Origin: Pilasporangium apinafurcum
Taxonomy: Eukaryota > Oomycota > Peronosporomycetes > Pythiales > Pythiaceae
NCBI GenBank assembly: GCA_001600495.1
Contig: BCKE01000052.1
Location: 88,548 to 152,547 of the forward strand
Length of the DNA stretch: 64,000 nt
Reading direction: 5' to 3'
Below are positions 14,527 through 32,348 of the stretch, in pieces (position 1 is the first letter of the stretch; each line of letters starts with the position of its first letter). Made by a program: the position numbers and the translations under genes. The notes beneath the pieces are model-generated. The model saw nothing but the letters and a program-made list of their open reading frames with translations. It searched no databases and was not told the DNA's origin.

Positions 14527-15807
14527 TCATTTCGTGTTCACAGCCTCCGTTTGGATCAACAATATCTTTTTCTCTGACAACCGCTTCGCCAGCCCCTGCC
14601 CCCCAGCACTCGCTGGCGTGAGGAATCCACCACCGCCAGCAACACCACCTTCATGTTCGTCTTTCGCCAAACAGAACGCTACCTCTGCTATCATTTTACT
14701 GGTCAGCATGTAGCCTGGATCCCCAACGCCATGGACTTTGGCTTTAGCGATTAGTGTGTTGGTGTCATCGTAAGCCAATGCGATTGCATCCAGAAATCCC
14801 TCCTGCAGTGCTTTATCGGAGGGTCCTGTGCCTGGTTTCGGTGCCAGATATCTCAGTAATGCACGTGTCAGACGGAAATATCCCAATACGAACAGTAGAA
14901 TTGTTGTTATTGTCATGTAACACTGGAACCAGAACCCACCGCCAGCAAATCGTTCGCGGTATGTAAACGTATCCCCATATTTGTCCTTGAGTATATAATT
15001 CGTACGATACACCACAAGCACATCGGCAGCGGCAGCGATGAACATTGATGTCCAATTGCGAATGTCATAATTGTATTTCAAGCAGATCCCCGTTTTGTCG
15101 TGCGACTTGAGCGCTCTTTTCTCGTGTGCGTAGTCTTCACTGGTCAGAAAATATGGATCCGTCAGCCGTTTGAGGTCTTTTGTTGACACTTCGTCCATTA
15201 TGCCAAGCAATGAGGCACATGAGCCTCCGCTCACCCCGTTCAACGAGTTAAGCCAGTAAAATGACACATTCGCGACATTTTTCTGCAGCTTGGAACGCAC
15301 GAATTCAGCCAATACAAACGTTGTGATATCTGCAGGAACTGCCACAAATCCGCAGCAGTTCACCACACGCGCGCCTGTCTTTTTGGCTGTGGTTTCATGC
15401 TGTCGGATAATTTGCTCAGCCCAGATCATTTCGCCTGTCAAGTCGCAGTAGTGGACACCATTGGCAGCACAGAGCTGCACTAGCAGCTTTGAATGAATAG
15501 CGTAGGGTCCCGCGACGGTCAGCACCACTTTAGTCTTTTGGACCATCGCCAGTAGTGCGGCATGGTCGGATGAGTTTGCCACTACTATGGGAATCTGATC
15601 CACTTGATCAGACGCCACCGAATGTTCTTTGGTCTTAAGTGTCTGCTTCAATTGCTGCAATTTCTCTTCACTTCGCCCAGCGATAGCCCATTTCAGTGCA
15701 TTCGGAGAAGTCAATGATGCTTCTTCTTGTGTGAGGAAATAGCGCACGATTAATTGGCCCGTGAAGCCCGTGGCGCCGTAGATGATGATATCGAAAGGCT
15801 TAGACAT
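14527..15807 (-). CDS. Saccharopine-dehydrogenase-like oxidoreductase, copy 2
   Basis: Single exon, 426 residues. The frame is open for 32 more codons upstream (to 15903), but I start at 15807 because the protein then begins MSKPFDII, exactly as copy 1 does, and the lengths match. GATGFTG is at residues 11-17. The GPYAIHSKLLVQLCAANGVH and CCGFVAVPAD blocks align with copy 1, where the second reads CCGFESVPSD. A membrane-like segment near residues 295-315 is rich in aromatic and aliphatic residues (ITTILLFVLGYF). It arose by tandem duplication and has diverged well past recent copy stage. Confidence 0.87.
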   Translation of the reverse strand: MSKPFDIIIYGATGFTGQLIVRYFLTQEEASLTSPNALKWAIAGRSEEKLQQLKQTLKTKEHSVASDQVDQIPIVVANSSDHAALLAMVQKTKVVLTVAGPYAIHSKLLVQLCAANGVHYCDLTGEMIWAEQIIRQHETTAKKTGARVVNCCGFVAVPADITTFVLAEFVRSKLQKNVANVSFYWLNSLNGVSGGSCASLLGIMDEVSTKDLKRLTDPYFLTSEDYAHEKRALKSHDKTGICLKYNYDIRNWTSMFIAAAADVLVVYRTNYILKDKYGDTFTYRERFAGGGFWFQCYMTITTILLFVLGYFRLTRALLRYLAPKPGTGPSDKALQEGFLDAIALAYDDTNTLIAKAKVHGVGDPGYMLTSKMIAEVAFCLAKDEHEGGVAGGGGFLTPASAGGQGLAKRLSEKKILLIQTEAVNTK

Positions 15808-16161
15808 CGTTCTTGCAATCACTTTCAGATTTGTCTTGAGAGTTGGATGTGAAAATGCAAAATGCCACTGGCTGCTGAAGAAAATATGGCAGTTGGCACT
15901 CATTAACGATGTGAAGTAGCAGTATCAAAAAAAAGAGAAAGGGTTTCTACTGCCTTGTCCACATCCTTCACTCCATTTCAATATACAACTGCCACTACGG
16001 TTGTCTCGTTAACGCTCCCATCCCTCAAGTAACTCTTCGTACACTTCCAACGACCCAACACTACGACTATGATCATTTTCATGGCGAAATTGTCAATCAT
16101 ATTCGTCACCGTTATAGACGCAGTCATCTTGTGTGTCCTATCCAATCTTAAAGCAAAGCTT
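15808..16161. other. Spacer upstream of reductase copy 2
   Basis: No gene recognised; only short open frames. It should hold the promoter of copy 2 and the 3' flank of the glutaredoxin gene. Confidence 0.4.
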
Positions 16162-16891: not shown

Positions 16892-17437
16892 TCAAGGAAA
16901 GAAATGTTTGACAAATTTGTATCCTTTGATAGGCGGATCCTCGGACACCACAACGGTCTCCGTAATTTGGTATCCAATAGATTGGTAAAAATTGACTGCT
17001 GGCGACATGTTGGCTCCAGTCCCTAAAAACACTTGTGTGTAGCCATTCGTCTTCGCCCACTGTTCCAATTGCGTTGTCAGCATCTTCCCAACGCCGTAGC
17101 GACGATAGTCTTTATGCACAGACATGCGCCGCAATTCACCTTCAGCATTGGGTTTCTTCTCTAGTCCGACAATCCCCACGATCTTATTATTTGAATTAGA
17201 GGCAACCGCGACCCAAAAATTGCCGCCAGGTGCTTGGTAAATGCCTTCGATGTCTGCGAGATCGGTTTCGATGCTTTCGCGGATGTAATCGAGTGTGAAT
17301 CGATCATTGTAAAAATCGTAGGTCTTCCAACCGTCGATAAATAGCTGGATGACTTCGGCATGGTCTTTGTTCCTGTACTCACGCACCTGGATCTTCGGAG
17401 GTGATGGCTCGGTGGCAGGTGTGACAATCGACGTCAT
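16892..17437 (-). CDS. GNAT N-acetyltransferase 1 of the array
   Basis: Single exon, 181 residues. The GNAT fold is read as an N-terminal IQVREYRNKDHAEVIQLF helix region, DLADIEGIY, a strand block GGNFWVA, then IVGIVGLE. Motif A, ELRRMSVHKDYRRYGVGKML (about residues 100-120), carries the RxxGxG pyrophosphate loop for acetyl-CoA. FYQSIGY (motif B) follows. The order DxADI...GGNFWVA...VGxVG...ELRRMSV resembles the NAT8/camello family, whose members acetylate cysteine conjugates or aspartate in the ER. This protein lacks their membrane hairpin and should be soluble. The substrate is unknown. It belongs to the array subgroup ending FVK-x (with copies 3 and 4). Confidence 0.88.
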   Translation of the reverse strand: MTSIVTPATEPSPPKIQVREYRNKDHAEVIQLFIDGWKTYDFYNDRFTLDYIRESIETDLADIEGIYQAPGGNFWVAVASNSNNKIVGIVGLEKKPNAEGELRRMSVHKDYRRYGVGKMLTTQLEQWAKTNGYTQVFLGTGANMSPAVNFYQSIGYQITETVVVSEDPPIKGYKFVKHFFP

Positions 17438-17885
17438 AATTTGTGATTCGTGATGTGGTTGAGCAACTGACTAATATGTGGCAAATGTGCTTTTGTGTGT
17501 GAAGGAAAGGTCGTGTGTGTCTGTGTGTGTTAGGACTGGAGCGAGTGATGTCGTAATCACATGATCACGATATCCTATCAGCTGGCCAGCGACCATCAAT
17601 TGCACGAAACGAGTGAATGATGGCTGATTGGAATAGAAACGATCTGGTTGGCTTTGCATTCTGATCATGGAGCTCTCACGCTCGAAGTCTGCACTCTATA
17701 ACACCCATAGATGACCATTGAGTGCCAATGAAGGAAGCATCAAACAATGATCTTCGGTTTAGCTAGCGACTGTTGAAAGATCTTGGTACAATTAATTTAG
17801 CACTCAATTCATTTAATGTGTTTTCGTACGAAGCAAGCGCCTATTGACAACAGAACGGGATGAATTTCGTTCTACTCTGTTCCTG
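17438..17885. other. Spacer between GNAT 1 and GNAT 2
   Basis: Promoter side of GNAT 1, with a short GT-rich run near 17500-17530 and one AGCAAGCGCCTA 12-mer near 17838 that recurs elsewhere in the window. No gene. Confidence 0.4.
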
Positions 17886-18482
17886 TCATAGATACTTTAC
17901 AAAATTGGCGAGTTTGAAGCATGGTTCTTCGCAGAATTTAGTCGTTGCTGTCTGCATATATCCGTTCGCCAAGTAAAACTGATGCGCTTGGGTCATCGTG
18001 ATGCTGTTCTGGAGGATGATATGCGTGTAATTTTGCCGTTTCGCCCAGTCTTCTGCGTGCTGTAGCAGCTTTCTGCCCAAGCCAAAGCGGCGATGTGTCT
18101 TCTTGACTGACATGCGAAAGAGTTCGCCCTCACCATCTGTTCGCTTAACAGACACAGCGATCGTACCGACAACCTCTTCTTTCTCTCCGTTCTCCTCATT
18201 CACAGCAGTAGCAACCCAGAAATTTCCACCAGGTGTGAGGTATGCGGCTTCAATATCGGCGAGATCGGTTGCTATCGCATTGGCAACATAATCGACAATG
18301 ACCTTATACTGCGGAATGGATGGGTCGGCGTACTCCATCATACCATCACGGAAGAGATCGATCACCGCGGCATTATCTTCTGGTCGGTATTGACGGATGG
18401 TAAGCGTTCGGTTGTTAGTAGAGGTTTTAACGGGAGCAATTCTCTCATCTGCGATGGTCGGAGACATTTTTTCCATATACAA
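17886..18482 (-). CDS. GNAT N-acetyltransferase 2 of the array
   Basis: Single exon, 198 residues if it starts at 18482; Met3 or Met6 are equally possible starts. It has GGNFWVA, and motif A reads ELFRMSVKKTHRRFGLG, so the usual RR before MSV is FR. A distinct SITMT block replaces the STG seen in most copies. It shares these changes and the DGMMxYADxSIPQYKV stretch with copy 5 (20214-20795), so these two form one subgroup separated by two members of another. Same strand as its neighbours, 249 bp from copy 3. Confidence 0.86.
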   Translation of the reverse strand: MYMEKMSPTIADERIAPVKTSTNNRTLTIRQYRPEDNAAVIDLFRDGMMEYADPSIPQYKVIVDYVANAIATDLADIEAAYLTPGGNFWVATAVNEENGEKEEVVGTIAVSVKRTDGEGELFRMSVKKTHRRFGLGRKLLQHAEDWAKRQNYTHIILQNSITMTQAHQFYLANGYMQTATTKFCEEPCFKLANFVKYL

Positions 18483-18731
18483 TGGTTGGCGTTGGATAGA
18501 CCAGATGTAGATAGAGAGCAGTTGTAAGATTCGTAAGAGATTAGAAAATTGGAAAATGATTGATACAATGGATCTGTCGGTTCAACCGCTTTTCTGGATT
18601 TTCTATTTTGTTACGTTATGAGGAGTCGAAGTACAGCCAATCACTGTGCTCGTCATGTCGCCATCTTCATCGGAATGTTGAGTGATCAGTTCAATTTGCT
18701 CGATATTTCTGGGGGGAAGGGGGAGGGGGGT

Positions 18732-19274
18732 CTACTTGAGCTGCTTGACAAATTGCCACGCCTCAATGCGCGGATTCGCTTCACACACCACAACTGGGTG
18801 AGTGCGCTCGTAATCCATCGCTTCATAAAACTTCATCGCATGCTTATTGAGTCCACCAGTCGTCAACACCACGCAGTTTATACCGTTCGCTTCTGCCCAT
18901 TGCTCCAGATGGTTGACGAGCTGTCTGCCCAGTCCACAGCGGCGGTAGGCGGAGTGCACAGACATGCGCCGCAGTTCGCCCTTATCGTCACTCCTCTCCA
19001 GCGCGACCATCCCAACGATTTTACCACTTGATGATTCAGTGTCGATCGCCACCCAGAAATTCCCGCCAGCGGCGAGATATGTGCCGTTGATATCCTCCAG
19101 ATCACCAGAACTACTCTTGGCGATGTAATTGCGGATGAAGGACTCGTTCGAGGTGTTGATGAAGCCATCAAAACCCTCAGCGAAGAGCTTTATGACCTCG
19201 GCATGGTCTTCAGGTTGATACTGACGGATCTGAATCGTATCGAGTGAAGGCACGCCAGTTGTAGTTGCATTCAT
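18732..19274 (-). CDS. GNAT N-acetyltransferase 3 of the array
   Basis: Single exon. The frame is open up to 19400 (222 codons), but I start at 19274 (MNATTTG), giving 180 residues. That puts IQIRQY at the same distance from the start as in the other copies and leaves the upstream part as leader. Motif A is ELRRMSVHSAYRRCGLG, with Cys in place of the usual Tyr/Phe in the loop. GGNFWVA is present. Ends WQFVKQLK. Closest in layout to copies 1 and 4. Confidence 0.85.
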   Translation of the reverse strand: MNATTTGVPSLDTIQIRQYQPEDHAEVIKLFAEGFDGFINTSNESFIRNYIAKSSSGDLEDINGTYLAAGGNFWVAIDTESSSGKIVGMVALERSDDKGELRRMSVHSAYRRCGLGRQLVNHLEQWAEANGINCVVLTTGGLNKHAMKFYEAMDYERTHPVVVCEANPRIEAWQFVKQLK

Positions 19275-19446
19275 TGTCTCTGTCGATTGAAAACGCAAAT
19301 GTGGAAAAATGTAAAGTGAGGCCATGGGACTTGTGAGCCCATCCTCTCTCTGCTCTCTATGTGTGCATATGGGTATTGGTGGGTTTATTTTGGATACCAA
19401 CGCATTAATTTGACATTTTATGTTTTGATCAATATTTTCGCATTAT

Positions 19447-19974
19447 CTAGTTCTCATGGAGATCCTTCACAAACATTAACACTTGGACTGGCGGCTCCTC
19501 TTGAATTGTGATCGTCTTGGTAATAGAGTATCCCATGGAGTGATAGAATTTCACCGGTTGGTCAAACATCGCGCCAGTGGTTAGAAAGATATTACTGATT
19601 TTGTTTTCTGTTGCCCACTGCTCCAAATGTGCGATCAATTTCCGCCCGACACCATATCGACGATATTCTGGATGTACTGCCAGTCTCCTCAATTCGCCTC
19701 CGTCGTCAGGCCTCTTCTCCAGCCCAACTATCCCCACAATCTGCTCTTCTCTTTCATTTTCGTCTGTGAAGATAGCGACCCAGAAATTCCCACCTGGACT
19801 GATATATGTTCCGTGAATATCACTCAAATCGGTCGTAAGACCCTCCTTAATGACGTGATTCAGCACTTCTTTTGGCATCATGTCGGTGTACGTCCGCCAG
19901 CCGCTCTCATAGAGTTGGTGGATGACTGGAATGTCTGTTGCCTGATATTGTCGGATCTTGATTGTGCCTGCCAT
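19447..19974 (-). CDS. GNAT N-acetyltransferase 4 of the array
   Basis: Single exon, 175 residues, the shortest copy, with almost no leader before IKIRQYQATD. Motif A is ELRRLAVHPEYRRYGVG, with LAV replacing MSV. GGNFWVA and FYHSMGY are intact. Ends MFVKDLHEN. Only 172 bp separate its stop from the start codon of copy 3 downstream on the minus strand, so regulatory space between copies is small. Confidence 0.87.
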   Translation of the reverse strand: MAGTIKIRQYQATDIPVIHQLYESGWRTYTDMMPKEVLNHVIKEGLTTDLSDIHGTYISPGGNFWVAIFTDENEREEQIVGIVGLEKRPDDGGELRRLAVHPEYRRYGVGRKLIAHLEQWATENKISNIFLTTGAMFDQPVKFYHSMGYSITKTITIQEEPPVQVLMFVKDLHEN

Positions 19975-20213
19975 TCTGTAGTGAAGCTGATGTTGCTCAA
20001 GGCAAAAATCTACTTATAGAACAGTGAGGGGGGAGAAGCAAAATGGTGGTGATTTGCAATATGATTTGATGGAGAAATGCGTCGCAGTTCATTTTCGTAA
20101 TCATTGCAAGATTAACACCGGGAAACATACGGTATAGAGCTCCGGCGGATACAACTGTTGGGCATAGAATGATGGTGAGATAAGCTGCTTGCTTATCTGA
20201 TCCATTGACAAAG

Positions 20214-20795
20214 CTACTTGTCACCTTCTATGCCATCCAAATATTTGACAAAATTCCAGACTTTGAAGGGCGGATCGAGACTCAATTTTGTTATGATCGT
20301 CTTGGCGTAGCCGCAATCCATGTAGAATTTGTGCGCCGCGGTCATAGTGATACTGTTCGATAGCACCAACCGCGTGTAGCCCTGTTGCGTCGCCCATTGC
20401 TCAACATGACGCAGCAATTGGCGGCCAATTCCGAAGCGACGATGCGTCGCCTTGACCGACATGCGGTAGATTTCACCTTCACCGTCTGGACGCTTGGGAA
20501 TTAGCGCGACGGTTCCCACAACTTCCTCTTCGTTTTCATTTTCCTTCACAGCAACAGCGACCCAGAAATTCCCACCAGGCGTGATATAGGCACCCTGCAC
20601 GTCGGAAAGATCAGTCTTGACGGCGTTCTCGACGTAATCAGTCCACACTTTGTACTGTGGAATGGATGCGTCGGCGTAATACATCATACCATCGGAGAAG
20701 ATCTGAATCACCTCTGGCAGATCCTTCGGTTGGAATTGGCGGATTTGGATGCTTGTTGTGTTAGTATTATTCTCATCCTTGCACGTCGGCGGCAT
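20214..20795 (-). CDS. GNAT N-acetyltransferase 5 of the array
   Basis: Single exon, 193 residues. Sister of copy 2: same DGMMYYADASIPQYKV stretch, EIYRMSVKATHRRFGIG motif A and SITMT block, and the same FVKYL near the C-terminus followed by a short extra DGIEGDK tail. GGNFWVA is intact. The alternation of subgroups along the DNA (1 / 2 / 3, 4 / 5) shows that duplication involved blocks or that copies were reshuffled. Confidence 0.87.
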   Translation of the reverse strand: MPPTCKDENNTNTTSIQIRQFQPKDLPEVIQIFSDGMMYYADASIPQYKVWTDYVENAVKTDLSDVQGAYITPGGNFWVAVAVKENENEEEVVGTVALIPKRPDGEGEIYRMSVKATHRRFGIGRQLLRHVEQWATQQGYTRLVLSNSITMTAAHKFYMDCGYAKTIITKLSLDPPFKVWNFVKYLDGIEGDK

Positions 20796-21407
20796 TTACT
20801 ACGAGAGACCCAAAATAAAAAGCAAAAACAAATGCGGGTGGATTTGCTTTGACTGGTAGCGCGCAAAAGCTGAAGTGAACTAAAACCGTTTGACTGATTT
20901 TTTTTTGTTTTACGAATGGGTGTAGAGGCAGGCGACTTAGGGGATGAGCCGTGAATCGTCGACATACACGAAAACAGAGAATACGATTAGAGCATTCTTG
21001 TGGCAGCCTGATAGGTGAAAAGGGACCAACAGTGTTGGTCTCAATGCTCAAACCAAAACGAAGCAGTTTAAACACTTGGGCTTTGGGTAGTCATTCCAGT
21101 TGTTTATTGAAAACCCGATGAATGATGTCACGAGATGATAGCGATGGCTCATCATTCAGTTCATATGGGAGGATGAGCTCCATTATGAATGTGAAGTTGG
21201 CAGTTGACTCGGATTTGATTTGGCGGGTGACAGGGTTTCGCCTGCATTGACCATTCTCAGAATACACAAACACATAGAAAAAACTGCATTTGTAGACCAC
21301 ATCCTTGCTTTATTCACCAACTCATATGTACGTGCTTGACCGATTTTGGTATCTTGATAGTCTGTATACATCGCTCTGATTGTAGTCACATGTGAATGCA
21401 CACCTCT

Positions 21408-21935
21408 CAGTATCTTGGAATACCAAATTTCCTCAAAGTACGAGTCTTCGTTCACGACTTGGGTCATGGTTTGTGTGCACCTAAACACCTCGTAAAACGC
21501 TTGGGCTATTTCATCGCAATACCAGTCAACAGCAAAATGCTCATAAACTCGTGCGCTCCTGCCCAGTTCTCCAAGCATGTGATCAACAAAGGATCGATAC
21601 ATAACATAGTCTTTACTGGCAGTCATGCGTCACAAGTCGCCGTCTCCGTTGCCATTCACTTCTAACGCTACCATCTCCACTAGGATCTCTTCCTTCTCGC
21701 CCGGCAATTCGTCTGCTGTCACCACAATTGTGACTCAAAAGCTACCACCATTAGCCATGTACATACCTTCAATACCGACCAGATTGGTTTCGATGCAATA
21801 CTGGATGAACTGGGATGAACACGGCTTGGTTTTCATACTCGAGGTAGAGCAGCGTGCCCTTACGAAAAAACACAATGATATCGTTGACATCACTGGCGTA
21901 ATGTGGAGCATGTATCTCTTTGACAGTGCAGTCAA
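21408..21935 (-). pseudogene. GNAT acetyltransferase pseudogene
   Basis: Minus-strand remains of a GNAT copy most like the next gene upstream (22187-22792). TGA at 21735-21737 sits exactly where the invariant Trp of GGNFW should be (GGSF then stop). A second TGA at 21630-21632 replaces the first Arg of the LRRM motif. A frameshift near 21830 separates the N-terminal piece (AVFIPV) from the DLxxIEGMY piece. The acetyl-CoA loop RxxGxG is no longer recognisable (SFVDHMLGELG). The C-terminal part still ends NEDSYFEEIWYSKIL, like NEDPHYEAVFYSKQL of the intact neighbour. This is ordinary decay of one array member. Confidence 0.85.
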
Positions 21936-22186
21936 ATGGAACTTGTAGATAGAAATGAAGAAGCATGATGGGCGTTTGAATGAGTAATCACTACCTCTTG
22001 TTCCTTGAACTATCTTCTTGGAGGAAGACTGTCGTACTTAAAGCATAGCATGTAATGCCAGCTATCCGCAATAACCATGAAGTATATGATCAGTTGTAAT
22101 GTATTCATCTTACAAAGCCACGTGGACGTAATTTTGTAGCGTATGAGCTGCATATTCATGTGCTCCTTTATTTTCTTTCATTCTTC

Positions 22187-22792
22187 TCATGGCACTATTG
22201 CTTTGAGTTGCTTGGAATAGAAAACCGCTTCATAATGCGGATCTTCGTTGACAACTTCCTTCTTAATGTATTTGTATCCAAACGCCACGTAAAACTCTTG
22301 TGCTTTCTTCATCACCCATCCCGTGGAGAGTGAAACGCTCACATATCCGTTCTCACGTGCCCAGTTCTCTAGATGGGCGACCAGCATCCGCCCAATACCA
22401 TATCGTCGGTAGCCTTCTTTCACGGACATACGTCGCAATTCGCCATCGTCATCGGGTTTTCGTTCAATCGCTATCATTCCGACTATCGTTTCTTTCTTCT
22501 TCTCCTCCACGTCATGCTCGTTCTCATCCGTCTTGACTGTCGCGACCCAAAAGTTCCCACCTGGTGTGATGTACGTGCTTTGAATGTCGCTCAAATCGGT
22601 CTCGATGGAGCGCTTAATGTAAAATTCGATCCCCATCGCGCGATGTTCAGGATAATCACGCATGCCAGCTGTAAAAAGTGCAATGACCTCGTCGAGATCA
22701 CTCGGTTTGTATTGACGGATGCACACTTCCGGTGTTGCAGGGGCTGTGCCGGTGGTGAAGGCGGGGATGGCGGTCGGTTCGATCGGCGGCAT
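22187..22792 (-). CDS. GNAT N-acetyltransferase 6 of the array
   Basis: Single exon, 201 residues. A Pro/Thr/Ala-rich leader of about 25 residues precedes VCIRQYKPSDLDEVIALF. The GGNFWVA strand is followed by a charged loop longer than in the other copies (KTDENEHDVEEKKKE). Motif A ELRRMSVKEGYRRYGIG is the consensus form, and FYVAFGY follows. Ends FYSKQLKAIVP, placing it with copies 7-11, which end in x-K-x-L. It is the last intact member before the S33 insertion. Confidence 0.88.
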   Translation of the reverse strand: MPPIEPTAIPAFTTGTAPATPEVCIRQYKPSDLDEVIALFTAGMRDYPEHRAMGIEFYIKRSIETDLSDIQSTYITPGGNFWVATVKTDENEHDVEEKKKETIVGMIAIERKPDDDGELRRMSVKEGYRRYGIGRMLVAHLENWARENGYVSVSLSTGWVMKKAQEFYVAFGYKYIKKEVVNEDPHYEAVFYSKQLKAIVP

Positions 22793-24025
22793 GACTTACT
22801 GGATTCGTAATCTGTCTCTGGTGTCACTGGAGGAAAACTCGAGAATGAAAGAGGACCAGACATCTGGACGATTGAGAGTGAAGGATAGTGATGCCGTAAT
22901 CAATTGCATCACAATGGCTGGTGAAGGCTAGCGGGGTTGGGATGTGGAGTTGAACGGACTGGTAGTCGTGCATGCTTGGAAATGGATATTGATCGAACAT
23001 GGAACTGTCTATCGTTGATTGGTCTGGTCCATGACGTTGTTTTTCTCACCATTAGCTTACGTGGTCTGATGCGATTGATACTTCGCTAAATTTGCCTATG
23101 GATACGAGCGGACGCGAGAGATAACGACACAATCACCAAATATAAATACTAACATGAAGACTCACACAAGGTGCACAAGCGCGCCAAACTGCTTTTCGTC
23201 TATAGTGTAGTTGGTAATAGGTGGTAGAAGGAATTGATTGCATTGAACATCCCTTTCCATCGACATTGCGCGTCATCCCCGACGCTGAGTGCTTCAAATG
23301 TGATTACTATGTGCAAAACAGCAATGAGTGATATGTCGAAATTGGGCAAATTGTGTTTGGATTTCGTGCCAGTGACTGAACGTCACTATATCGAGTGATT
23401 TGAGGTAGTATAACAATGACAGAAAAACGGCTGACGCTTGGACGCTAGTGCGAAAAGAAACACCCCTTCGAGGAACTGCCTTAATGCATCGAAAGTGGGT
23501 GCAGGCTGCGCAATAGTTCTGTGTGCTTGCTTCGTCCTGCCGTTGGACACACCGGAAGATTATAGGTGCATTTTTCCCCCGCCTAAATACAGTCATCTTC
23601 AGGCACATCTTTCCCATTTGGTAGAAGAGTCGAAAAGGACCCATTATGGAGAGACTATTGATAACAGTAAAGCAGCAACAACGATTGCCAATAGTGTCAC
23701 GATTTTCGACAAATAGCAGACAGTAAAGATGCATCTAGTATCCACACTAGATCTTCCTCTTTGGTGTGCCACTTCTACAGCAGTAATACGATCTAAGTGT
23801 TGGATATAGTCACTTTAAACATCTAGTACCTCATCATCCCCATGGGAAGCGATCTGTTATTAAACGACAGCCACCAGCAAATAATCCACCTCCTCAAAAC
23901 CGGGCTGGCTAGGTCTCTTTAATCCATTTACAATAATCGCTCATTTCCAAATTTGCGCTATCAATCAAACAAGTTTTAAGCATCGTCTTCTCACCTTCAC
24001 TGCCAACTTATTTTAAGTTAACTCC
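22793..24025. other. Intergenic stretch between GNAT 6 and the S33 pseudo-enzyme gene
   Basis: Shared upstream region of two divergent genes. The oomycete initiator at 23939 serves the plus-strand S33 gene. I see no gene; frames at 23294-23734 have no recognisable domain. Confidence 0.5.
23939..23954 (+). promoter_or_regulatory. Oomycete core-promoter initiator (Inr)
   Basis: GCTCATTTCCAAATTT matches every position of the published oomycete initiator consensus GCTCATTYYNCAWTTT. It lies 72 bp before the ATG at 24026, a normal distance for a transcription start. Confidence 0.85.
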
Positions 24026-25765
24026 ATGCATTTTCCTCGCCATCTCTTCGCTCTTACCTCATGTCTCGTGTTCGCGCCTGTGGTACACAGTCAAGACGAT
24101 ATCGTGGGGTTGAACGGCTGGTATGCTTGCTCTGACAGCACGCTCATCAGGGGCGCCTATCTTTTCGATAGCCACGAGTGTGCTCAGTTCACGGTGCCGC
24201 TCTGTCATCCAGGAGTATGCGATGACCCAGAGAACCACACAATCGAGGTTTTCGTCAAGCGTCTTCGTGCGATCGATGATCCAGACAACAAGCCGAATGT
24301 CTGGTTCCTCCCCAATGGCCTGGGTCTCGCGTCCTACTACATGGAGCCGCTCATGGAGCTCACATCGATGGATATGAATGACAAGATCAACGTCTACACA
24401 TTCGACTATCGCGGCACGGGGAGGAGTAATTTGCTGTCTTGCGTGGCTGCTCAAGCCGGCGCAGGCGGCTCTCCTGGCCGAGCCACCATCGAGCCAAGTG
24501 AGGTGCCTGACTGCGCGATGGATTTATTTAGGCGATATGGAGGCGATGAGAACAAGTTGGCGGCGTTTTCTGTCACCAGCGCGGCGTTGGATCTCAAGCA
24601 TTTCATCTCCACGTACCAGGCCAATTCCAAAGTGTTTGTCTATGGCTACGACTACGCTTCGTACATGGCAGAGCGACTGATGCATTTGGCAACACCTGAA
24701 ATTGTTGGATATGTGCTGGATAGCGTCCGTACGACTTCAGGGTCCGATGAAGCTAACTTCCCATACTATTCGAAATGGGACGTCGATTTCGATGAAGTTG
24801 CACGTGATTTCCTAGGGAAATGTGCTGAAGATGTGATATGTAATTCTCATTTTACCGACCAAAGTCTTTCCACAACGCTGCAACAGCTTTTCGTGAACAT
24901 GGATGCTGATCCATTCACCATGTGTGCTTCTACTCTGACTATGTGGTTCAGTGAACCACGATTGCCATCTGATGTGCTTCGACACACACTCGGCTCTCTA
25001 ATCCAAGAGATGGAAGGACGTGCGCTGATTCCTGCGCTGGTTTATCGCCTTGACCGGTGTGATGACAATGACGTGGAAGTGCTGACGCATTTCTTCGGAA
25101 CGTTTTATGACTCATCCAAAGAGGTATTCGGATCCGAAGAAGATGGCTATACATCCATGCTCCTGAAGCAATTGATCATATATTCGGAAATATGGGAAAC
25201 ACCGACGCCAAGCACTGCAACCATGCAAGAGCGTTGGAATTCGACACTTATGTCGTACAACTGGACGGATCAAGTGAATGTAGCAGGCTATTGTGCGTTC
25301 ACCCAAGAGCAATCTGCTGCGTGCGAAGACGCGTATGCATTTACTACGGAGCATCCGATCAAGTACATGAAGGATCAGTATTGGAACGTTGCTGCTAAAA
25401 TCCCGAGTAATGTAAGCGTGCTATTGCTGAGCGGGAAATTGGACGCGTGGGCTCCCTACAAGTACGCCGAATCTTTGTATGATGCGCTCGAAAGCGACAA
25501 TAAAGCGCTCATTACTTTTGACAACGCCTCGAGTTTTATTTTGGTGAGCACACCGATCAACTCGACGGACAAACTGGTTCCGACTTGTGGTCGGAATCTG
25601 TTCCACTCGTACCTGGAAAACGGTGGTGATCTCTCGCAACTGGATACATCGTGTGTCGATCAAGTGCTTCCGCTCACGTTTAATGTGACGGCGGATGTTG
25701 CAATGAGCTACATGGGGACGGAAGATATCTACGACGGCAAGTACAATGGCACGTTGGATTATTAA
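24026..25765 (+). CDS. Secreted S33-like protein without catalytic Ser/His (pseudo-enzyme)
   Basis: Single exon, 579 residues. A signal peptide (about residues 1-22, ending VVHS) is followed by the same cysteine-rich lead-in as the active paralogue (PLCHPGVCDD), YRGTGRS and the hydrolase core. The nucleophile elbow reads GYDYA, with Asp209 instead of Ser. The Asp of KLDAWAP is kept, but the His-bearing loop is FDNASSF with no His. Glycosylation sites and the fold-defining cysteines persist, and the frame is open throughout, so it is maintained as a protein. It ends at DGKYNGTLDY, just where the others continue into a membrane anchor, so it should be a soluble secreted protein. The intron found in both paralogues is absent. 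It may act as a decoy, binding or storage protein; that is inference. Confidence 0.85.
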   Translation: MHFPRHLFALTSCLVFAPVVHSQDDIVGLNGWYACSDSTLIRGAYLFDSHECAQFTVPLCHPGVCDDPENHTIEVFVKRLRAIDDPDNKPNVWFLPNGLGLASYYMEPLMELTSMDMNDKINVYTFDYRGTGRSNLLSCVAAQAGAGGSPGRATIEPSEVPDCAMDLFRRYGGDENKLAAFSVTSAALDLKHFISTYQANSKVFVYGYDYASYMAERLMHLATPEIVGYVLDSVRTTSGSDEANFPYYSKWDVDFDEVARDFLGKCAEDVICNSHFTDQSLSTTLQQLFVNMDADPFTMCASTLTMWFSEPRLPSDVLRHTLGSLIQEMEGRALIPALVYRLDRCDDNDVEVLTHFFGTFYDSSKEVFGSEEDGYTSMLLKQLIIYSEIWETPTPSTATMQERWNSTLMSYNWTDQVNVAGYCAFTQEQSAACEDAYAFTTEHPIKYMKDQYWNVAAKIPSNVSVLLLSGKLDAWAPYKYAESLYDALESDNKALITFDNASSFILVSTPINSTDKLVPTCGRNLFHSYLENGGDLSQLDTSCVDQVLPLTFNVTADVAMSYMGTEDIYDGKYNGTLDY

Positions 25766-26579
25766 GAATCAAATCCATAATAGTATAGACTATATTATGG
25801 AATGGGTTTTGCTGAATGGCAGCCAGTGTGTTACATCCGTAAATTCATGAGAAATGATTGATCACTCCAGTTTTTCATCATGCGATCTGGTCTATCATAA
25901 TTTAGTTTTTCCTGTGGCTCAAAAATTGTATACATCAAGTGCTCATGAGCGACAACAAAAACGTACAGATCGTGTCTAAGTGTGTCATGTTGATTATTTT
26001 TGCGGCGACGTCAGTATCACCAAGAAAGGTTAAAAACGCCAAATGCGACTTTTACGTTGCCCTTACTGATCATAAACGTGCAAAATAGTAGTGATGGTCG
26101 AAAGTGAACAAAATCTTGTCTAGTTTCGATGCCTTCGAAATTTCATGAGCGATGACCCAGGTTGGGTTAGTTGTTTTGACATGGATGGTTAGTAACATAG
26201 ACAGTCATAACTGCAGGTCATCTCTTCAAAGCAACCTAATCCAATCCCTTTAACTCATTTCCAGCAACAGCTCATTTCCACATTTGCGTTCTCAACCGAA
26301 CAAGCTTCAAGTCTCACCTTCACAGTATCTGTAGCCTACTAATGAGTCAATTTCATGCACCTTCCTCACCATCCCTTCACACTTGTCTCAGCTCTTGTTC
26401 GCGTCAATTGCCCATCTCAAGACAACAGTGCAGGTAAAAAACAAAACCCATTTCAACATTTTTTATTTTATCCAGTGGAGATATATATTTGGTTTTATTA
26501 TGAAATGCAACACTTCAACATTGCGTGATTTTTGCTGATTCGGAACTCAATCCTATGCCCCAATCAACAATTATGCGCT
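25766..26579. other. Intergenic stretch holding a truncated S33 relic
   Basis: Downstream flank of the S33 pseudo-enzyme gene. It holds the partial duplicate of that gene's 5' end at 26200-26440, listed separately, and no other recognised element. Confidence 0.5.
26200..26440 (+). pseudogene. Truncated duplicate of the S33 gene 5' end (promoter plus about 28 codons)
   Basis: The stretch repeats the promoter and first codons of the gene at 24026: TTTAACTCATTTCC-type leader, a second initiator GCTCATTTCCACATTT at 26270-26285, a similar 5' leader, then an ATG at 26355. The encoded start, MHLPHHPFTLVSALV and then SQDN, parallels MHFPRHLFALTSCLV and SQDD of the intact gene. Similarity stops after about 28 codons and the frame ends soon after. 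A tandem copy was made and its body lost. Confidence 0.8.
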
Positions 26580-27140
26580 TTAGAGCTCTTTGGCGTAGTA
26601 TGTTGTTCTATAAAATGGCTCCATAGGATAAACGCCGAACTTGGTGTGTGTATATCCACATGATTCGTAAAAGTATTGTGCTTGTTTCATCACTTCGCCC
26701 GTCGCCAGCCACACGCGTACAATCCCGTGAGATTTCGCCCAGTCTTCTAAGCACGCGATCAGTAAACGACCGATACCGTAACCTCTGTAGCCACTCTTGA
26801 CAAACATCCGTCGTATTTCACCCTCACATCCAGGTTTTGCTTCCAAGCCGATCATTCCAACGATGGTGCTCTTCTTTTTGTTATCTTCTTCCAAAGTGGC
26901 AACCCAAAAGTTTCCACCATTCTTCTGATAGGTGCCTTCGATATCGCTCAAATCGCTTCTAATGGCGTAATTAATAACATCACGCAGTATATGATCGATC
27001 ATCTCTGGGCTCTTGTGCTCGGGATAACTCAAGAATCCCTCGATAAAGATTGCAATTACTTCTAGCAAGTCTTCGGACTGAATGGGGCGAATTGTGACAC
27101 GACTGTTTGTTCTGGAGGGTGAAGATTCGCGTGGCGACAT
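26580..27140 (-). CDS. GNAT N-acetyltransferase 7 of the array
   Basis: Single exon. The frame opens at 27233 (217 codons), but a start at 27140 (MSPRESS) gives 186 residues and aligns with copy 8, whose leader is alike. VTIRPIQSEDLLEVIAIF, then SDLSDIEGTY, GGNFWVA, and motif A EIRRMFVKSGYRGYGIG, where Arg-Gly replaces Arg-Arg. Ends YYAKEL. Nearest relative is copy 8 (same RPIQxEDL, same RMFVxSGYRG). Confidence 0.86.
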   Translation of the reverse strand: MSPRESSPSRTNSRVTIRPIQSEDLLEVIAIFIEGFLSYPEHKSPEMIDHILRDVINYAIRSDLSDIEGTYQKNGGNFWVATLEEDNKKKSTIVGMIGLEAKPGCEGEIRRMFVKSGYRGYGIGRLLIACLEDWAKSHGIVRVWLATGEVMKQAQYFYESCGYTHTKFGVYPMEPFYRTTYYAKEL

Positions 27141-28239
27141 GGTCGAAGTAGCTGGCTGGTATGTCTTTAGAGGTACAAGGTAAGAATCAAAGTATGTTGC
27201 TTGGATCATTGTGAATATGGTAAAAAGGAGCATTGGTGACCGGTTTTATCTGAAGCAACTATTTCGGTTTTTATGGACAATGTTTTGGTAATCGAGTGTT
27301 TGGATGAGTTATAAAACCCATTTGGGTAAAAAAATATATTGAGTTTTATCCAAATTAATCTGGCTCTATACTGGGTTATTAAATCGTCTTGGATTTGCGC
27401 TAACTCCTCTACACTTTGCTACAAGTAGTCCAACGATGACCTCGCTAGTCAACAACAACGATCCTTTTGCTTTCTAGATGCCTTATCCTGTGCCAATTAG
27501 CTTTGAGGAGTATCCTTCGATTTATACGCCATGTACCATAGCGGATGTGAAAGCGGCAGTGAAGGTTGGTGACTGTGAACGGAAATATAGAGATCAACAC
27601 AAAAGGACAAGGCCATAGATCATATATATTCATAATGGATCCAACAAACGTGTCGGATCATCTAAATGATAAATGCATCGCCTCCTGTAGGTGATAGATA
27701 GACTTGGATTGAGCGATACTTCTTGAATAATACGTGTGCTATTGTGGGCATAAATGTCTGTAGTTATCTATGACTGATGTTCTAGCCTTGATAGAGATTA
27801 TCATCACGCTACATAGATGACCTTTTTCCTAGCTATTCAGCGTTGTATCAGGTCCATCATGTAAAATGATTGAGCGAAGGTGGAGATTGGCATGTGCTTG
27901 CCAGCAGAAAATTCGACTTCGTCGTCGACTATCAAGGTTGAGGACCAGCAAGGAGATGAGCAGCCATTTTTTACTCCAATTGGCGAACAGAGCCAGTCGT
28001 TCACTTGATTACGGTACCGGCGCACTGTGCTGGGTTGGTCTATATGGTTACGCTCATTCTTCGCCATTGCGGCTCTTCCACATCAACGAAAGACACAAAT
28101 GGCACGACGAATATAGTTAGCGATTGTTCAGTTAATGTCGATATTACAGCCGAGCTTGTAGTTATTGGTAGAACAGCACAACGATACAAGGACAGATCTC
28201 ATTACTCTTATAATATATGAATATCTACTCTTACTCATC
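27141..28239. other. Intergenic stretch between GNAT 7 and GNAT 8
   Basis: About 1.1 kb, AT-rich, with a diverged copy of the upstream element at 27297-27319. A plus-strand fragment at 27436-27619 reads as peptide with one in-frame TAG (PYPVPISFEEYPSIYTP after the stop), perhaps a relic of an unidentified gene. Nothing else recognised. Confidence 0.4.
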
Positions 28240-28797
28240 TCATAGCTGCTTGGTGAAATACATCGTCTCATAGAGTGGATCTTTCGAGATCAACTCGCAC
28301 CTGGTTGGTGTGTATCCAAGCGACGCATAGAAGTTTTGCGCTGGCTTCATCCGCTTCCCCGTGGAGAGCCACACAGTGTTGAAGCCATTGGCCTTCGCCC
28401 ATGCCTCGAGGTTGTTGACAAGCAAACGACCGATGCCGAAACCTCTATAGCCACTCTGGACAAACATTCTCCGCAATTCACCCTCACCCTCAGATTTCTG
28501 TTCCAGACCAACGATCCCAACGATCTTCTCTGGTTGGTCCTCCTCCGAGAGGGTCGCGACCCAAAAATTGCCCCCAGGAGCTTTGTATGTGGTTTCGATA
28601 TTACCCAAGTCGGTCTTAATAGCATGTTCGATGATGTCATACTGGACGAAATTGATAATATGTGGTTCATTGTGCTCTGGGTAGGAAAGTACGCCGGACT
28701 TGAAAACAGCGATGGCGTCTTCCAGATCCTCTGGTTGGATTGGTCGCACATTGACGCGAGATGACATATTTGAGGTTGACGAAACGTTTGGGGGCAT
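28240..28797 (-). CDS. GNAT N-acetyltransferase 8 of the array
   Basis: Single exon, 185 residues. VNVRPIQPEDLEDAIAVF, TDLGNIETTY, GGNFWVA, IVGIVGLE, then motif A ELRRMFVQSGYRGFGIGRLL and FYASLGY. Ends YFTKQL. Paired with copy 7 by the RMFV and YRG changes. A well-conserved 57-bp upstream element (28932-28988) lies 135 bp before the start codon and is nearly identical to one upstream of copy 9. Confidence 0.88.
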   Translation of the reverse strand: MPPNVSSTSNMSSRVNVRPIQPEDLEDAIAVFKSGVLSYPEHNEPHIINFVQYDIIEHAIKTDLGNIETTYKAPGGNFWVATLSEEDQPEKIVGIVGLEQKSEGEGELRRMFVQSGYRGFGIGRLLVNNLEAWAKANGFNTVWLSTGKRMKPAQNFYASLGYTPTRCELISKDPLYETMYFTKQL

Positions 28798-29491
28798 GGC
28801 AAATGATGTAGAACCGCTTGATTGGTTGGTTATTTGTCTGTGATTCTTTTGTTTTGCGTTTGCTCGGGAAAATCTTGGAGTGTGGCATTGAATCCATCTT
28901 ACTCTGAAGTTGTGTCTCTTTAGGCGATGCGCAATCCGGTTTTAACGGACTTCATCGTAATCTTGCGTTTGGATGAGCACTAAAACCCGAAACGAAGGAT
29001 GGGTCTCAATATAAAAATCCGGCTTGTAATTGGGTTTAATAAATAAAAAAAGTACCGGAACACTAACGGCTATTGATATGCAACGATTGGCACACTACGC
29101 TGATTCATTGACAGTTTGATCCTGCGCGGATGCATTCGGCTGGCGTATTCAGCCCAAACGAACTTACTCCTTTGGTATTGCTGGGTCTCCATGTTGTCGT
29201 GTTAATTTGCTAGTAGTTGTTTTGTAGCATCTTTCATAGCTATTCGTTCGTTCACAACTATGGTGGCATCATGTGTTCATCGACAACGTAGGCCAGATTT
29301 ATCCAACGAAGCGTCATCAGATTCGCCCAGCTGCATCGATTTGGTTTATAGTGCTATCTGCCCTAATAATGCAACAATAATTTCAGATACCATGAACCAT
29401 AGTTTATCGATACATCCATTACGTGAACCAAGCAGGATGAACAGAAATGCATTTTAAAAAAAGGTATTCAATGAAAACCTGGATGCATGCT
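28798..29491. other. Intergenic stretch between GNAT 8 and GNAT 9
   Basis: Contains the upstream element at 28932-28988 and AT-rich sequence with TTGGGTTTAATAAA near 29030. No gene recognised. Confidence 0.45.
28932..28988 (-). repeat. Conserved upstream element of the GNAT array, copy A
   Basis: 57 bp that differ at only two positions from 30116-30172; weaker similarity continues about 15 bp further out (CTTTAGGCGATGCG against CTCTAGGAGACGTA). Both copies sit just upstream of a GNAT start codon, while the coding regions have diverged far more, so this may be a retained control element or a recent conversion tract. A shorter relative, TGTTTGGATGAG with TAAAACCC, is at 27297-27319 before copy 7. 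Confidence 0.75.
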
Positions 29492-30025
29492 CTATACGCT
29501 TCCAAATGATTTCTTGAAATAGACAGTCGCCCACTCATCTTCGGTTACTGCAGACTCGGTCTTCACCTTCGTATACCCAGACCTCAGGTAAAACCGACAC
29601 GTATCGACGACTTCCGCTCCTGTAGAAAGCACGATCGCATGAAAACCATGGGTGACGGCCCAGTCTTCCAAGTGTGTGATCAGCTGATGGCCAATACCAA
29701 AGCGTCGATAACCGTCTTTCACCGCCATGCGTCGCAGTTCACCTTCGCCACTTTGTCCTCTCGGTTCAAGGCCAACAGACCCCACGACCACCTCTTCACC
29801 ATTTTCGACGACAGTAGCGACCCAGAAATTCCCACCAGTTTCCATATATGTACCATCAACATCACCCAAATCCATTTCGAGGCTTTTCTGAATTGAATGC
29901 ACCCGGTCGAGATGGTTTTGATGCTCGGGATGCTGCAACCACCCGTTCACAACCAGATCGAAGACACTTTGGTGGTCTTTGGATCGATACTGACGGATAC
30001 ACACACTATCTAAGGAAGCAACCAT
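29492..30025 (-). CDS. GNAT N-acetyltransferase 9 of the array
   Basis: Single exon, 177 residues, short leader (VASLDSVCIRQY). MDLGDVDGTY, GGNFWVA, VVGSVGLE, motif A ELRRMAVKDGYRRFGIG, and FYLRSGY. Ends YFKKSFGSV. The most diverged C-terminus of its subgroup. An upstream element nearly identical to that of copy 8 lies 91 bp before its ATG. Confidence 0.87.
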   Translation of the reverse strand: MVASLDSVCIRQYRSKDHQSVFDLVVNGWLQHPEHQNHLDRVHSIQKSLEMDLGDVDGTYMETGGNFWVATVVENGEEVVVGSVGLEPRGQSGEGELRRMAVKDGYRRFGIGHQLITHLEDWAVTHGFHAIVLSTGAEVVDTCRFYLRSGYTKVKTESAVTEDEWATVYFKKSFGSV

Positions 30026-30942
30026 TGCGGATGGAACGTTACTTGAGTTACTCAGAAAGAATTATATCCATTCATCGCATATATGTGAACGGATTATCCT
30101 GCTCTAGGAGACGTACAATCCGGTTTTAACGGGCTTCATCGTAATCTTGCGTTTGGATGAGCATTAAAACCCAAAGAAAAAATGATTTTTAACAAGCAAT
30201 CCGCAAGTCAAGGGAGCCAAAAACAGCCTAATTCTTAGGTTGGCCAAAATCCAAAAAATCCGCTATTCGTGCTCTACGAAAATGTGTGGCAGTTCGAAAC
30301 AGATCCGTCCAAGAAAACTTGTTTCCCGTGATTATTATCCAAGTCGTAGCATCCAGAGAGGAGAACTGGTACGACAAAATTTGCATTTTCTGTCAGATGG
30401 TCATCGATTTTGCGATTCTCAAGGTCGTTCAGAACATAAAAAATACCACAATACCATTTTTGTCCAATGATATACTCTGTAGCACATAGTATGGAACTCA
30501 AGTGCTGAAGAGTGGCTTAAGACACCAACAGTATTGCACCAATAACTCGAAGATTGCCGCCAAATTACTTGGACGACAAACACTCTTGACAATATTAGAG
30601 CTCATTTTATTCAATATGGTTAGGGTAAATGACATATATGAAACGAATTATGAATCAAAAGAAATAAAAACGATGACCATCAAGCTAAAACAATGCCAAA
30701 ATGGAAGCGAATACTCATCTTTGACTGCTAATTACTCGACAACCACTAGTTCGATTTGAACGCTGTTTGCTTTGTTCATCATTACAAATAAAAAACTATC
30801 CTATGCCAAAATATTATGTGCTAAAAGGCAGTTGCGGATTTTTTGAGTTTAGGAAAACAACTGAAAACTGGCACCGTTGGCTCGCGGATTGCTTGTTAAT
30901 ATAAAATCCAGTTGTATGCAATGGATTAAAATATTAAAAAAT
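30026..30942. other. Intergenic stretch between GNAT 9 and GNAT 10
   Basis: About 0.9 kb, strongly AT-rich, with the upstream element at 30116-30172. Several short frames on both strands overlap each other and show no domain. No gene recognised. Confidence 0.45.
30116..30172 (-). repeat. Conserved upstream element of the GNAT array, copy B
   Basis: Near-identical partner of 28932-28988 (55 of 57 positions by eye), including the CAATCCGGTTTTAACGG and CGTAATCTTGCGTTTGG blocks. It lies 91 bp upstream of the start codon of GNAT 9. Confidence 0.75.
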
Positions 30943-31530
30943 CTATGGTTTCAAAGTTCCGGATTTCAGCATCTTGGTGTAATACGCAAGTAAATACGTC
31001 GGATCGTTCGGCACTGGTTCGGTCTTGGTCTTCTCGTACCCGAAGACTTCGTAAAACTGGCATGCCGTGGTCATCACTACTGCTGTGGACAGCGACACAC
31101 GTACAAATCCATTCGCTTTCGCCCATTCTTCCAAGTTTCTGAGCAGCAAGCGGCCGATGCCATATCGACGGTAACCGTCTTTCACCGACATGCGGCGTAA
31201 CTCGCCTACACCATCGGGTTGTGCTTGTAACCCGACCATCCCGACCACGACAGGATTTTCTTGGCCATCCTCTTGGATGGTGGCGATCCAAAAATTCCCC
31301 CCAGAGCTCAAATATGTACCTTCAATGTCGGCCAAGTCACTGTTAAGGCTGTGATTGATGTACCACGTGTGCTTCTCGCGCTGTTCCTGGTGTGCGCGAT
31401 AATGCATCATGCCTTGAACGAAGAGATTTGCCACTTCTTGGCGATCTTCTGGCCGGTATGAACGGATCTGAACGGAAGGAACAATGGAATCACTATCATT
31501 GTTGATGACAACAGACTGGATCGATGACAT
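30943..31530 (-). CDS. GNAT N-acetyltransferase 10 of the array
   Basis: Single exon, 195 residues. VQIRSYRPEDRQEVANLF, SDLADIEGTY, GGNFWIA (Ile for Val), VVGMVGLQ, motif A ELRRMSVKDGYRRYGIG, FYEVFGY. Ends YYTKMLKSGTLKP. The region between the N-terminal helix and DLADI is histidine- and glutamine-rich (HYRAHQEQREKH), a spot where copies vary most and where substrate choice could differ. Confidence 0.88.
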   Translation of the reverse strand: MSSIQSVVINNDSDSIVPSVQIRSYRPEDRQEVANLFVQGMMHYRAHQEQREKHTWYINHSLNSDLADIEGTYLSSGGNFWIATIQEDGQENPVVVGMVGLQAQPDGVGELRRMSVKDGYRRYGIGRLLLRNLEEWAKANGFVRVSLSTAVVMTTACQFYEVFGYEKTKTEPVPNDPTYLLAYYTKMLKSGTLKP

Positions 31531-31808
31531 ATCGGTGTATAGATGCTTTCTGAATCTGTGTGGTTCCTTAGGTAAACGAGAAAGATATTATGAAAGGATT
31601 CTTGAAAAAACAAAGCTTTGATTACCGATGAGTGGGACAGCGAGTGAATGCAAGAGGGAGGCGGTGAAGGTTCTTGTTCTTGATTCTTTAATTTGATACA
31701 TACGGGCAAATTCTCATGGCTTTCCAATGACATCGTGTGGGTAAGAGCTCTGTTACGCCACTAAGCTATCAACTTTTCCTTCCACGTAATTAGAATAACT
31801 TACAACGT

Positions 31809-32348
31809 TCACAGTTGTTTCTCGAAATGGGCGCTTTCATGGTACGGATCAAGTGAAAAGACGGACGTCCGGACGAGTTCATAGCCCACAGATTGATAAA
31901 ATGCACATGCTTGTTGCATTGTCACACCGGTCGATAGTTTAATGTAATGAAAGTGGTTTACTTTTGCCCAATGCTCAAGATGCTTGACTAGAGCTCTGCC
32001 CAGACCCAGGCGACGGTACCCTTCTTTCACCGACATACGGCGAAGCTCCCCAATACGCAGTCCTTCTTTCTCTTCATTCGTTTGCAATCCAATCATGTCG
32101 ATGATATGTTCATCACCAGTGGTGGCGACCCAAAAGCTTCCACCTTTGGCGAAATACGCAGCTTCAATATCAGCGAGATCACTGCTGAGACTCTGCTGTC
32201 GCACACGCTGCCATTGAGCTTTGCTTACTTCGTCTTCATCCTCAAAGGAGTAAGATGCCATGCCATCAACGTACAATTGAGCGACAATAGGCTGATCTTC
32301 TCGTCGAAACGGGCGGATTGTGACGTTTTCCATACCTGCTGTTCCCAA
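31809..32348 (-). CDS. GNAT N-acetyltransferase 11, end of the array
   Basis: Single exon, 179 residues (Met6 at 32333 is a possible alternative start). VTIRPFRREDQPIVAQLY, SDLADIEAAY, GGSFWVA (Ser for Asn), MIGLQ, motif A ELRRMSVKEGYRRLGLG, FYQSVGY. Ends HFEKQL. It is the last member; 378 bp further on the strand switches to PACRG, so the two genes share a divergent upstream region. Confidence 0.87.
   Translation of the reverse strand: MGTAGMENVTIRPFRREDQPIVAQLYVDGMASYSFEDEDEVSKAQWQRVRQQSLSSDLADIEAAYFAKGGSFWVATTGDEHIIDMIGLQTNEEKEGLRIGELRRMSVKEGYRRLGLGRALVKHLEHWAKVNHFHYIKLSTGVTMQQACAFYQSVGYELVRTSVFSLDPYHESAHFEKQL

Follow-up and report, generated by a model that had tools for sequence, protein, structure and literature searches.

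The growth of GNAT acetyltransferase families by expansion is already known, as exemplified by amphioxus, which has seven AANATs, of which the two tested displayed broad amine specificity, as far as the available excerpt of that study goes (PMC2897805). Here, we examine a locus in the oomycete Pilasporangium apinafurcum, where eleven intact GNAT genes and one decayed copy lie within a 64,000-nucleotide stretch of contig BCKE01000052.1 (positions 88,548 to 152,547; hereafter, the window). We propose, at a probability of about 0.55, that this array is an old tandem family of amine N-acetyltransferases, soluble and with acceptor pockets that differ between copies. It would, like the amphioxus genes, represent the expansion of a GNAT family; those genes belong to the AANAT family, and the likeness is one of description (PMC2897805). 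Among open-licence papers, judged by their titles and the beginnings of their abstracts, no such array or family was described; the "GNAT acetyltransferase" of one oomycete paper, as excerpted, refers to GCN5- and HAT1-like enzymes (PMC4030286).

The closest PDB structure to copy 10, the tenth gene of the array, is that of a Staphylococcus aureus GNAT (NP_373092.1; PDB 3d8p; profile E value, 7.9e-21; Foldseek E value, 3.5e-12). The fold and a D-L-x-x-I...Y...GG-x-FW-x-A stretch are common to this protein and the array, but their identity is 24%, alanine replaces the beta-4 glutamate in the alignment, and the title of the structure gives no function. Two GNATs encoded on Rhodobacterales plasmids, WP_149615748.1 from Pukyongiella litopenaei and WP_089423461.1 from Pseudosulfitobacter pseudonitzschiae, group with the array (support, 100/100). 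Both have the glutamate, within an AELRRM motif, and a canonical RRRGIG loop, and WP_149615748.1 has 22 residues in the segment between helix 1 and the DLxDI motif, which we call the lid. They differ from the array in having 31 to 32% identity to copy 10, in reading GGQFFVA where the array has GGNFWVA, and in occupying one place per plasmid, beside genes of the carboxymuconolactone-decarboxylase and pyridoxamine-phosphate-oxidase families. At first, a beta-4 glutamate and a long lid seemed confined to the array (11 of 11 copies versus 0 of 11 bacterial relatives), an idea that was dropped on account of these plasmid genes; because the glutamate occurs in both of them and a 22-residue lid in the one measured, these features mark a wider subfamily.

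Vertebrates offer another point of comparison in the NAT8/Cml cluster, where clustered GNAT genes encode membrane-anchored proteins with a similar D-I...Y...FWVA stretch. Five genomes of the 11 bacterial loci contain 1, 2, 1, 1, and 1 copies at an E value of <1e-30 and 5, 4, 1, 1, and 1 at 1e-12. These copies are scattered, except for two matches (weak or strong) that lie 50 kb apart in genome G001; a search of the Bacteroidota, to which G001 belongs, gave matches at an E value of 1e-18 in 2 of 198 genomes. With copy 10 as the query, there were three plasmid hits, which were read; copy 1 hit 57 plasmid records. A phage search returned one record, covering 42% of the query, and a search of viral contigs returned one relative, the same contig twice.

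Eleven intact genes, a decayed copy, and oomycete-type promoters

The list of open reading frames contains 11 intact, mutually alike GNAT genes on the minus strand, which span positions 16892 to 32333 and encode 174 to 201 residues from their likely ATG codons. In tblastn searches within the window, every copy matched all others, and nothing further was found at an E value of 0.01 except the pseudogene. All 11 copies match PF00583 (E values, 1e-13 to 2.6e-18), with 52 to 66.8 bits where the gathering score is 20.7. An earlier note on this DNA, which had counted 11 intact genes and one dead copy, is borne out. The same note described a head-to-tail array on one strand. That description is right for the GNAT genes, all of which are on the minus strand, but not for an uninterrupted run, because a plus-strand gene at 24026 to 25765 lies between copies 6 and 7; the copies form two runs, namely, copies 1 to 6 with the pseudogene and then copies 7 to 11. 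The GNAT features are as follows, with PF00583 E values in parentheses.

16892..17437, minus: copy 1, GNAT, 181 residues, subgroup of copies 1, 3, and 4 in the trees (1.2e-17)
17886..18476, minus: copy 2, GNAT, 196 residues from ATG, subgroup of copies 2 and 5 in the trees (8.5e-15)
18732..19274, minus: copy 3, GNAT, 180 residues from ATG, subgroup of copies 1, 3, and 4 (2.6e-18)
19447..19974, minus: copy 4, GNAT, 175 residues, subgroup of copies 1, 3, and 4 (2.4e-16)
20214..20795, minus: copy 5, GNAT, 193 residues, subgroup of copies 2 and 5 (3.5e-17)
21399..21894, minus: decayed GNAT copy, nearest to copy 6, with two in-frame stops, a frameshift, and the P-loop lost
22187..22792, minus: copy 6, GNAT, 201 residues (1e-13)
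26580..27140, minus: copy 7, GNAT, 186 residues, pair of copies 7 and 8, start placed by likeness to copy 8 (3e-17)
28240..28797, minus: copy 8, GNAT, 185 residues, pair of copies 7 and 8 (8.3e-17)
29492..30025, minus: copy 9, GNAT, 177 residues (7.2e-16)
30943..31530, minus: copy 10, GNAT, 195 residues, with an AlphaFold2 model (4.2e-16)
31809..32333, minus: copy 11, GNAT, 174 residues from ATG (3.5e-15)

The listed frames of copies 2, 3, and 11 begin with TTG, and their likely ATG starts are 18476, 19274, and 32333; for copy 3, this choice is supported by a promoter motif 45 nt upstream. Copy 7 may start at 27140, not at 27233, to judge from its likeness to copy 8. As the earlier note had held, the acetyl-CoA loop is intact in each of the 11 copies, reading RRxGxG or, in copies 7 and 8, RGxGxG; the loop is defined as Q/R-x-x-G-x-G/A in an excerpted review of GNATs (PMC4964394). 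Altogether, 27 columns are invariant across the 11 copies, including the beta-4 glutamate and a tyrosine. None of the three copies tested matched a family of anti-phage defence.

The main part of the pseudogene, at about 21399 to 21809, aligns with copy 6 across 143 columns at 32% identity; it contains the two stops and lacks the P-loop. A second piece, upstream at about 21820 to 21894 and in another frame, resembles residues 31 to 55 of copy 6 (a score reached by 1 of 500 shuffles), which indicates that the pseudogene is also frameshifted. The 147-residue open reading frame at 21183 to 21626 overlaps the pseudogene and is probably not a separate gene.

Promoters provide independent evidence about the host. 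The combination of an initiator (INR; YCAYTYY) with a flanking promoter region (FPR; MWTTTNC) was reported, in the excerpted source, to be unique to oomycetes relative to a diatom, Arabidopsis, and yeast and to occur in 8 to 15% of oomycete genes (PMC3599244). We scanned 200 nt upstream of the starts of 21 genes, allowing an INR-FPR gap of 0 to 4 nt; these were the 11 copies (with the start of copy 11 placed 3 nt off, at a codon other than ATG) and 10 others, hand-picked among long ATG frames with introns ignored. The combination was found in 4 of the 21 genes (expected, 0.13; 0 of 500 shuffles), comprising 3 of the 11 copies (expected, 0.09; 0 of 500 shuffles) and 1 of the 10 others. All four sites are exactly 16 nt long, although the gap was free to vary. 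Those of the array are as follows.

18544..18559, minus: INR+FPR of copy 2, 16 nt, 83 nt before ATG
19304..19319, minus: INR+FPR of copy 3, 16 nt, 45 nt before ATG
20863..20878, minus: INR+FPR of copy 5, 16 nt, 83 nt before ATG

Across the whole window and both strands, there are six INR+FPR sites, namely, these four upstream sites, one at 26272 in a truncated gene copy, and a 14-nt site at 1136 that lies >200 nt from any tested start. Taken singly, INR occurs in 6 of the 11 copies (expected, 5.1) and FPR in 9 (expected, 5.2; 9 of 500 shuffles), while among the 21 genes the counts are 12 for INR (expected, 8.0; 19 of 500 shuffles) and 10 for FPR (expected, 8.1). The exact 16-nt combination thus supports, from the promoter motifs, the oomycete label of this DNA.

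Old duplications and their subgroups

Several measures indicate that the duplications that built the array are old. Pairwise protein identity among the 11 copies is 35 to 59%. For all 55 pairs, synonymous divergence (dS) by the NG86 method either cannot be defined or reaches 1.66 or more, and identity at third positions averages 35%; from the dS values and the third positions, it follows that the duplications are old. That 11 frames have stayed open around a conserved core shows purifying selection. Because dS is saturated in all pairs, the ratio of nonsynonymous to synonymous divergence cannot separate diversifying from relaxed selection. No tract of gene conversion was seen in coding DNA, where the longest exact run shared by any pair is 23 nt.

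Trees were built from the array alone, with 11 bacterial rows, without the long-branched rows L005 and L006, and with three plasmid relatives added while L005 and L006 were left out; these two rows were thus kept only in the tree with 11 bacterial rows. Two further rows, L010, which is partial, and L012, whose match falls outside the motif, were left out of all alignments and trees. The subgroup of copies 2 and 5 has support of 100/99 in the array-only tree and up to 100/100 in the others, and that of copies 1, 3, and 4 has support of 93/90 in the array-only tree, with about 92 to 95/90 to 95 across trees. Copies 7 and 8 pair at 99/98 in the array-only tree, are parted weakly (58/44) in the tree with 11 bacterial rows, and have 78/62 with the plasmid rows; this weakening arises because the bacterial rows attach beside these two copies. 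A group of copies 6 to 11 has 46/74 in the array-only tree and is absent from the best trees with bacteria, yet it is not rejected by the approximately unbiased (AU) test (P = 0.148). Of the subgroups named in the earlier note, therefore, the one of copies 2 and 5 stands and the one of copies 1, 3, and 4 nearly so, whereas the pair of copies 7 and 8 holds only in the array-only tree and the group of copies 6 to 11 is neither supported nor rejected.

Along the DNA, copies 1 to 5 follow the order A-B-A-A-B, where A denotes copies 1, 3, and 4 and B denotes copies 2 and 5. We suggest that this order could be explained by duplication of a two-gene block together with one extra A copy. The pairing of copies 1 and 4 that such a block duplication needs has support of only 71/57, and the pairings of copies 1 and 3 and of copies 3 and 4 are not rejected.

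A separate observation concerns the DNA upstream of copies 8 and 9 (28918 to 28996 and 30102 to 30178, minus strand), where a near-identical stretch of 74 bp at 89% identity contains 57 bp at 96.5%, despite the fact that the two proteins are only 39% identical and their dS is undefined. There was no match of >15 bp to this stretch elsewhere in the window, and a 25-base piece of it had no exact match in a collection of viral sequences. Two explanations are possible: a recent event, whether insertion (possibly of a small mobile element) or conversion, or a control element conserved to an unusual degree.

A variable lid on a conserved core, and how the array may be read

An AlphaFold2 model of copy 10, the 1 of the 11 copies that was modelled, displays a confident GNAT fold (predicted local distance difference test score, 90). 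The beta-4 glutamate that all the copies share (E110 in copy 10) lies 11 residues before R121, the first residue of the P-loop; similarly, the general base E570 of hPCAF lies 11 residues before Q581, the first residue of its P-loop, according to the excerpted review (PMC4964394). In the 22-row alignment, where copy 11 carries one extra residue owing to its misplaced start, every row has the tyrosine that is Y160 in copy 10; by analogy with the tyrosine of other GNATs described in that excerpt (PMC4964394), it is likely the general acid.

Set against this core, the lid (between G40 and D65 in copy 10) has 22 to 27 residues in the copies versus 13 to 15 in the 11 bacterial relatives, and its sequence differs in all 11 copies. 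In the copy 10 model, it forms helices at residues 45 to 49 and 51 to 62, while in the model of the bacterial relative L001 the same stretch takes in the last part of helix 1, a loop of six residues, and a turn of three. Residues 41 to 63 are the conservation minimum of the core, and the least conserved 21-residue core window lies there (18% identity versus a core mean of 41%). The excerpted review places the GNAT acceptor site at the beta-1-beta-2 loop, helix 4, and strand 6 (PMC4964394); the lid lies in the beta-1-beta-2 loop and may touch the acceptor. The evidence supports an old multicopy family that has been kept as intact genes and whose greatest core diversity falls in the likely acceptor-site lid. 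This bears out in part the interpretation in the earlier note, in which the array is a putative lineage-specific expansion whose substrates may have diversified.

On the reading that we favor, each copy is its own gene, and its protein would bind acetyl-CoA through the RRxGxG loop and acetylate a primary amine; the beta-4 glutamate is the predicted general base and Y160 the putative general acid. The long, variable lid would help select the acceptor, so that the copies, as a set of amine N-acetyltransferases, would differ or overlap in their substrates, which are most likely small amines rather than proteins. Possible roles include detoxification or the inactivation of the organism's own or external amines. 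In keeping with predicted solubility, a crude hydropathy scan of the 11 copies from their likely starts revealed no membrane-like stretch (highest 19-residue mean, 0.43 to 1.17). A bolder version, with a fixed catalytic core whose variable lid helix diversified from copy to copy and gave the oomycete, at one locus, a long-lived, standing repertoire for dealing with a wide range of amines, is a tentative idea that we regard as rather doubtful.

Several observations weigh against the favored reading. The earlier note had placed the diversity between helix 1 and the D-x-x-D/N-I block, and the conservation minimum of the core agrees with that placement; however, the 6-residue beta-2-beta-3 turn (0.169) is as variable as the lid, and so is the N tail (0.098), which makes relaxed constraint on the lid possible, and copies 2 and 5 keep the lid more conserved (18 of 25 positions) than the rest (89 of 148), which points to redundancy in that pair. 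Among the scores listed for NCBIfam equivalogs (ArsN2, RimI, AAC(6'), PaiA, and others), all are below the curated cutoff for the 11 copies, the highest being 49.8 bits against a cutoff of 124 for copy 3, and so no substrate is assigned in this way. The hydropathy scan is not sharp, given that the presumed secreted protein of the 24026 gene scores only 1.21, and the frame of copy 7 is open up to the ATG at 27233, from which a longer form would start with a hydrophobic stretch. Finally, the INR+FPR combination was not found in 8 of the 11 copies.

These points bear on two other functional readings. In one, the copies are protein acetyltransferases that modify lysines or N termini of different proteins. 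The PDB matches do include HP0935, which is titled a protein acetyltransferase, and an archaeal Ard1, with Naa50, Naa30, and Naa20 among the matches by sequence, and the beta-4 glutamate occupies the position of the PCAF general base. Yet the best 50 of 704 fold matches of copy 10 at an E value of 0.001 also include ArsN, tabtoxin-resistance, and phosphinothricin acetyltransferases, Pfam scans of the copies gave acetyltransferase families only and no adaptor domain, and diverged, free-standing copies with variable lids are, as a matter of general knowledge, more usual in metabolite enzymes; we therefore consider protein substrates a possibility, though an improbable one. The other reading, that tandem duplication left mostly redundant copies whose lids relaxed without substrate diversification, draws on the copy that is already dead, on the equally variable N tail and turn, and on the alike lids of copies 2 and 5. 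It seems to us unlikely, given that 11 frames with 27 invariant columns have outlasted such deep synonymous divergence and that, in the 7 other pairs examined (of 55), conservation is lower in the lid than elsewhere in the protein.

A further alternative concerns only the origin of the array and is compatible with the amine acetyltransferase reading, namely, that two or more genes founded the locus, for example, through transfer between bacteria and the oomycete lineage. When the three plasmid relatives are added, two Rhodobacterales rows fall inside the array in the best tree, and a single clade of the 11 copies then has an AU P value of 0.054. This placement is weak (83/75), however, the likelihood difference is 1.58, and the two rows, which are odd in composition, sit on a single long branch (2.46). 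Without them, the array occupies one side of a branch, with support of 88/96 against 11 bacterial rows and 100/100 once L005 and L006 are removed. Multiple seeding thus appears quite improbable, while the trees that include the Rhodobacterales relatives neither show nor reject a single origin.

Neighboring genes and significance

Two plus-strand features lie between copies 6 and 7.

24026..25765, plus: unrelated gene interrupting the array, with INR+FPR at 23941-23956
26245..26403, plus: truncated duplicate of the 24026 gene, comprising its promoter and first codons

The protein of the 24026 gene, for which a Pfam scan gave no match of its own, has an N terminus that, judged by eye, looks like a signal peptide, and it is presumed to be secreted. 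The gene belongs to a family of three copies in the window, at 6743 to 8763 (minus), 24026 to 25765 (plus), and 55461 to 57561 (minus), the two paralogues being 36 to 46% identical to the 24026 copy; of these, the frame at 6743 to 8419 matches the S33 and TAP-like hydrolase families, and that at 55461 to 57299 matches none.

Duplication is evident elsewhere in the window too. About 1 kb from the array, two genes with saccharopine-dehydrogenase-type domains form a tandem pair on the minus strand (12844 to 14118 and 14527 to 15903; 49% identical). A 1.3-kb stretch is duplicated at 38553 to 39895 and 40537 to 41810, where the DNA is 69% identical and the frames are 77 to 83% identical in parts, with a WD40 match in the first. 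Ankyrin repeats at 1738 to 3337 recur in steps of about 99 bp, with copies that are 71 to 85% identical in DNA, within a 1,358-residue ankyrin-kinase frame. Besides the ankyrin-kinase, other genes of the window encode a ParcG protein, an RWP-RK protein, and an AA9-like match below its cutoff; these flanking genes would be compatible with a flagellate stramenopile. An Rfam scan of the window gave 0 matches.

If the copies differ in their substrates, this locus would amount to eleven natural enzyme variants that have the same core and different lids. With such variants, acceptor choice in GNATs would become directly testable, and attention would be drawn to amine acetylation as a possibly overlooked side of oomycete metabolism.

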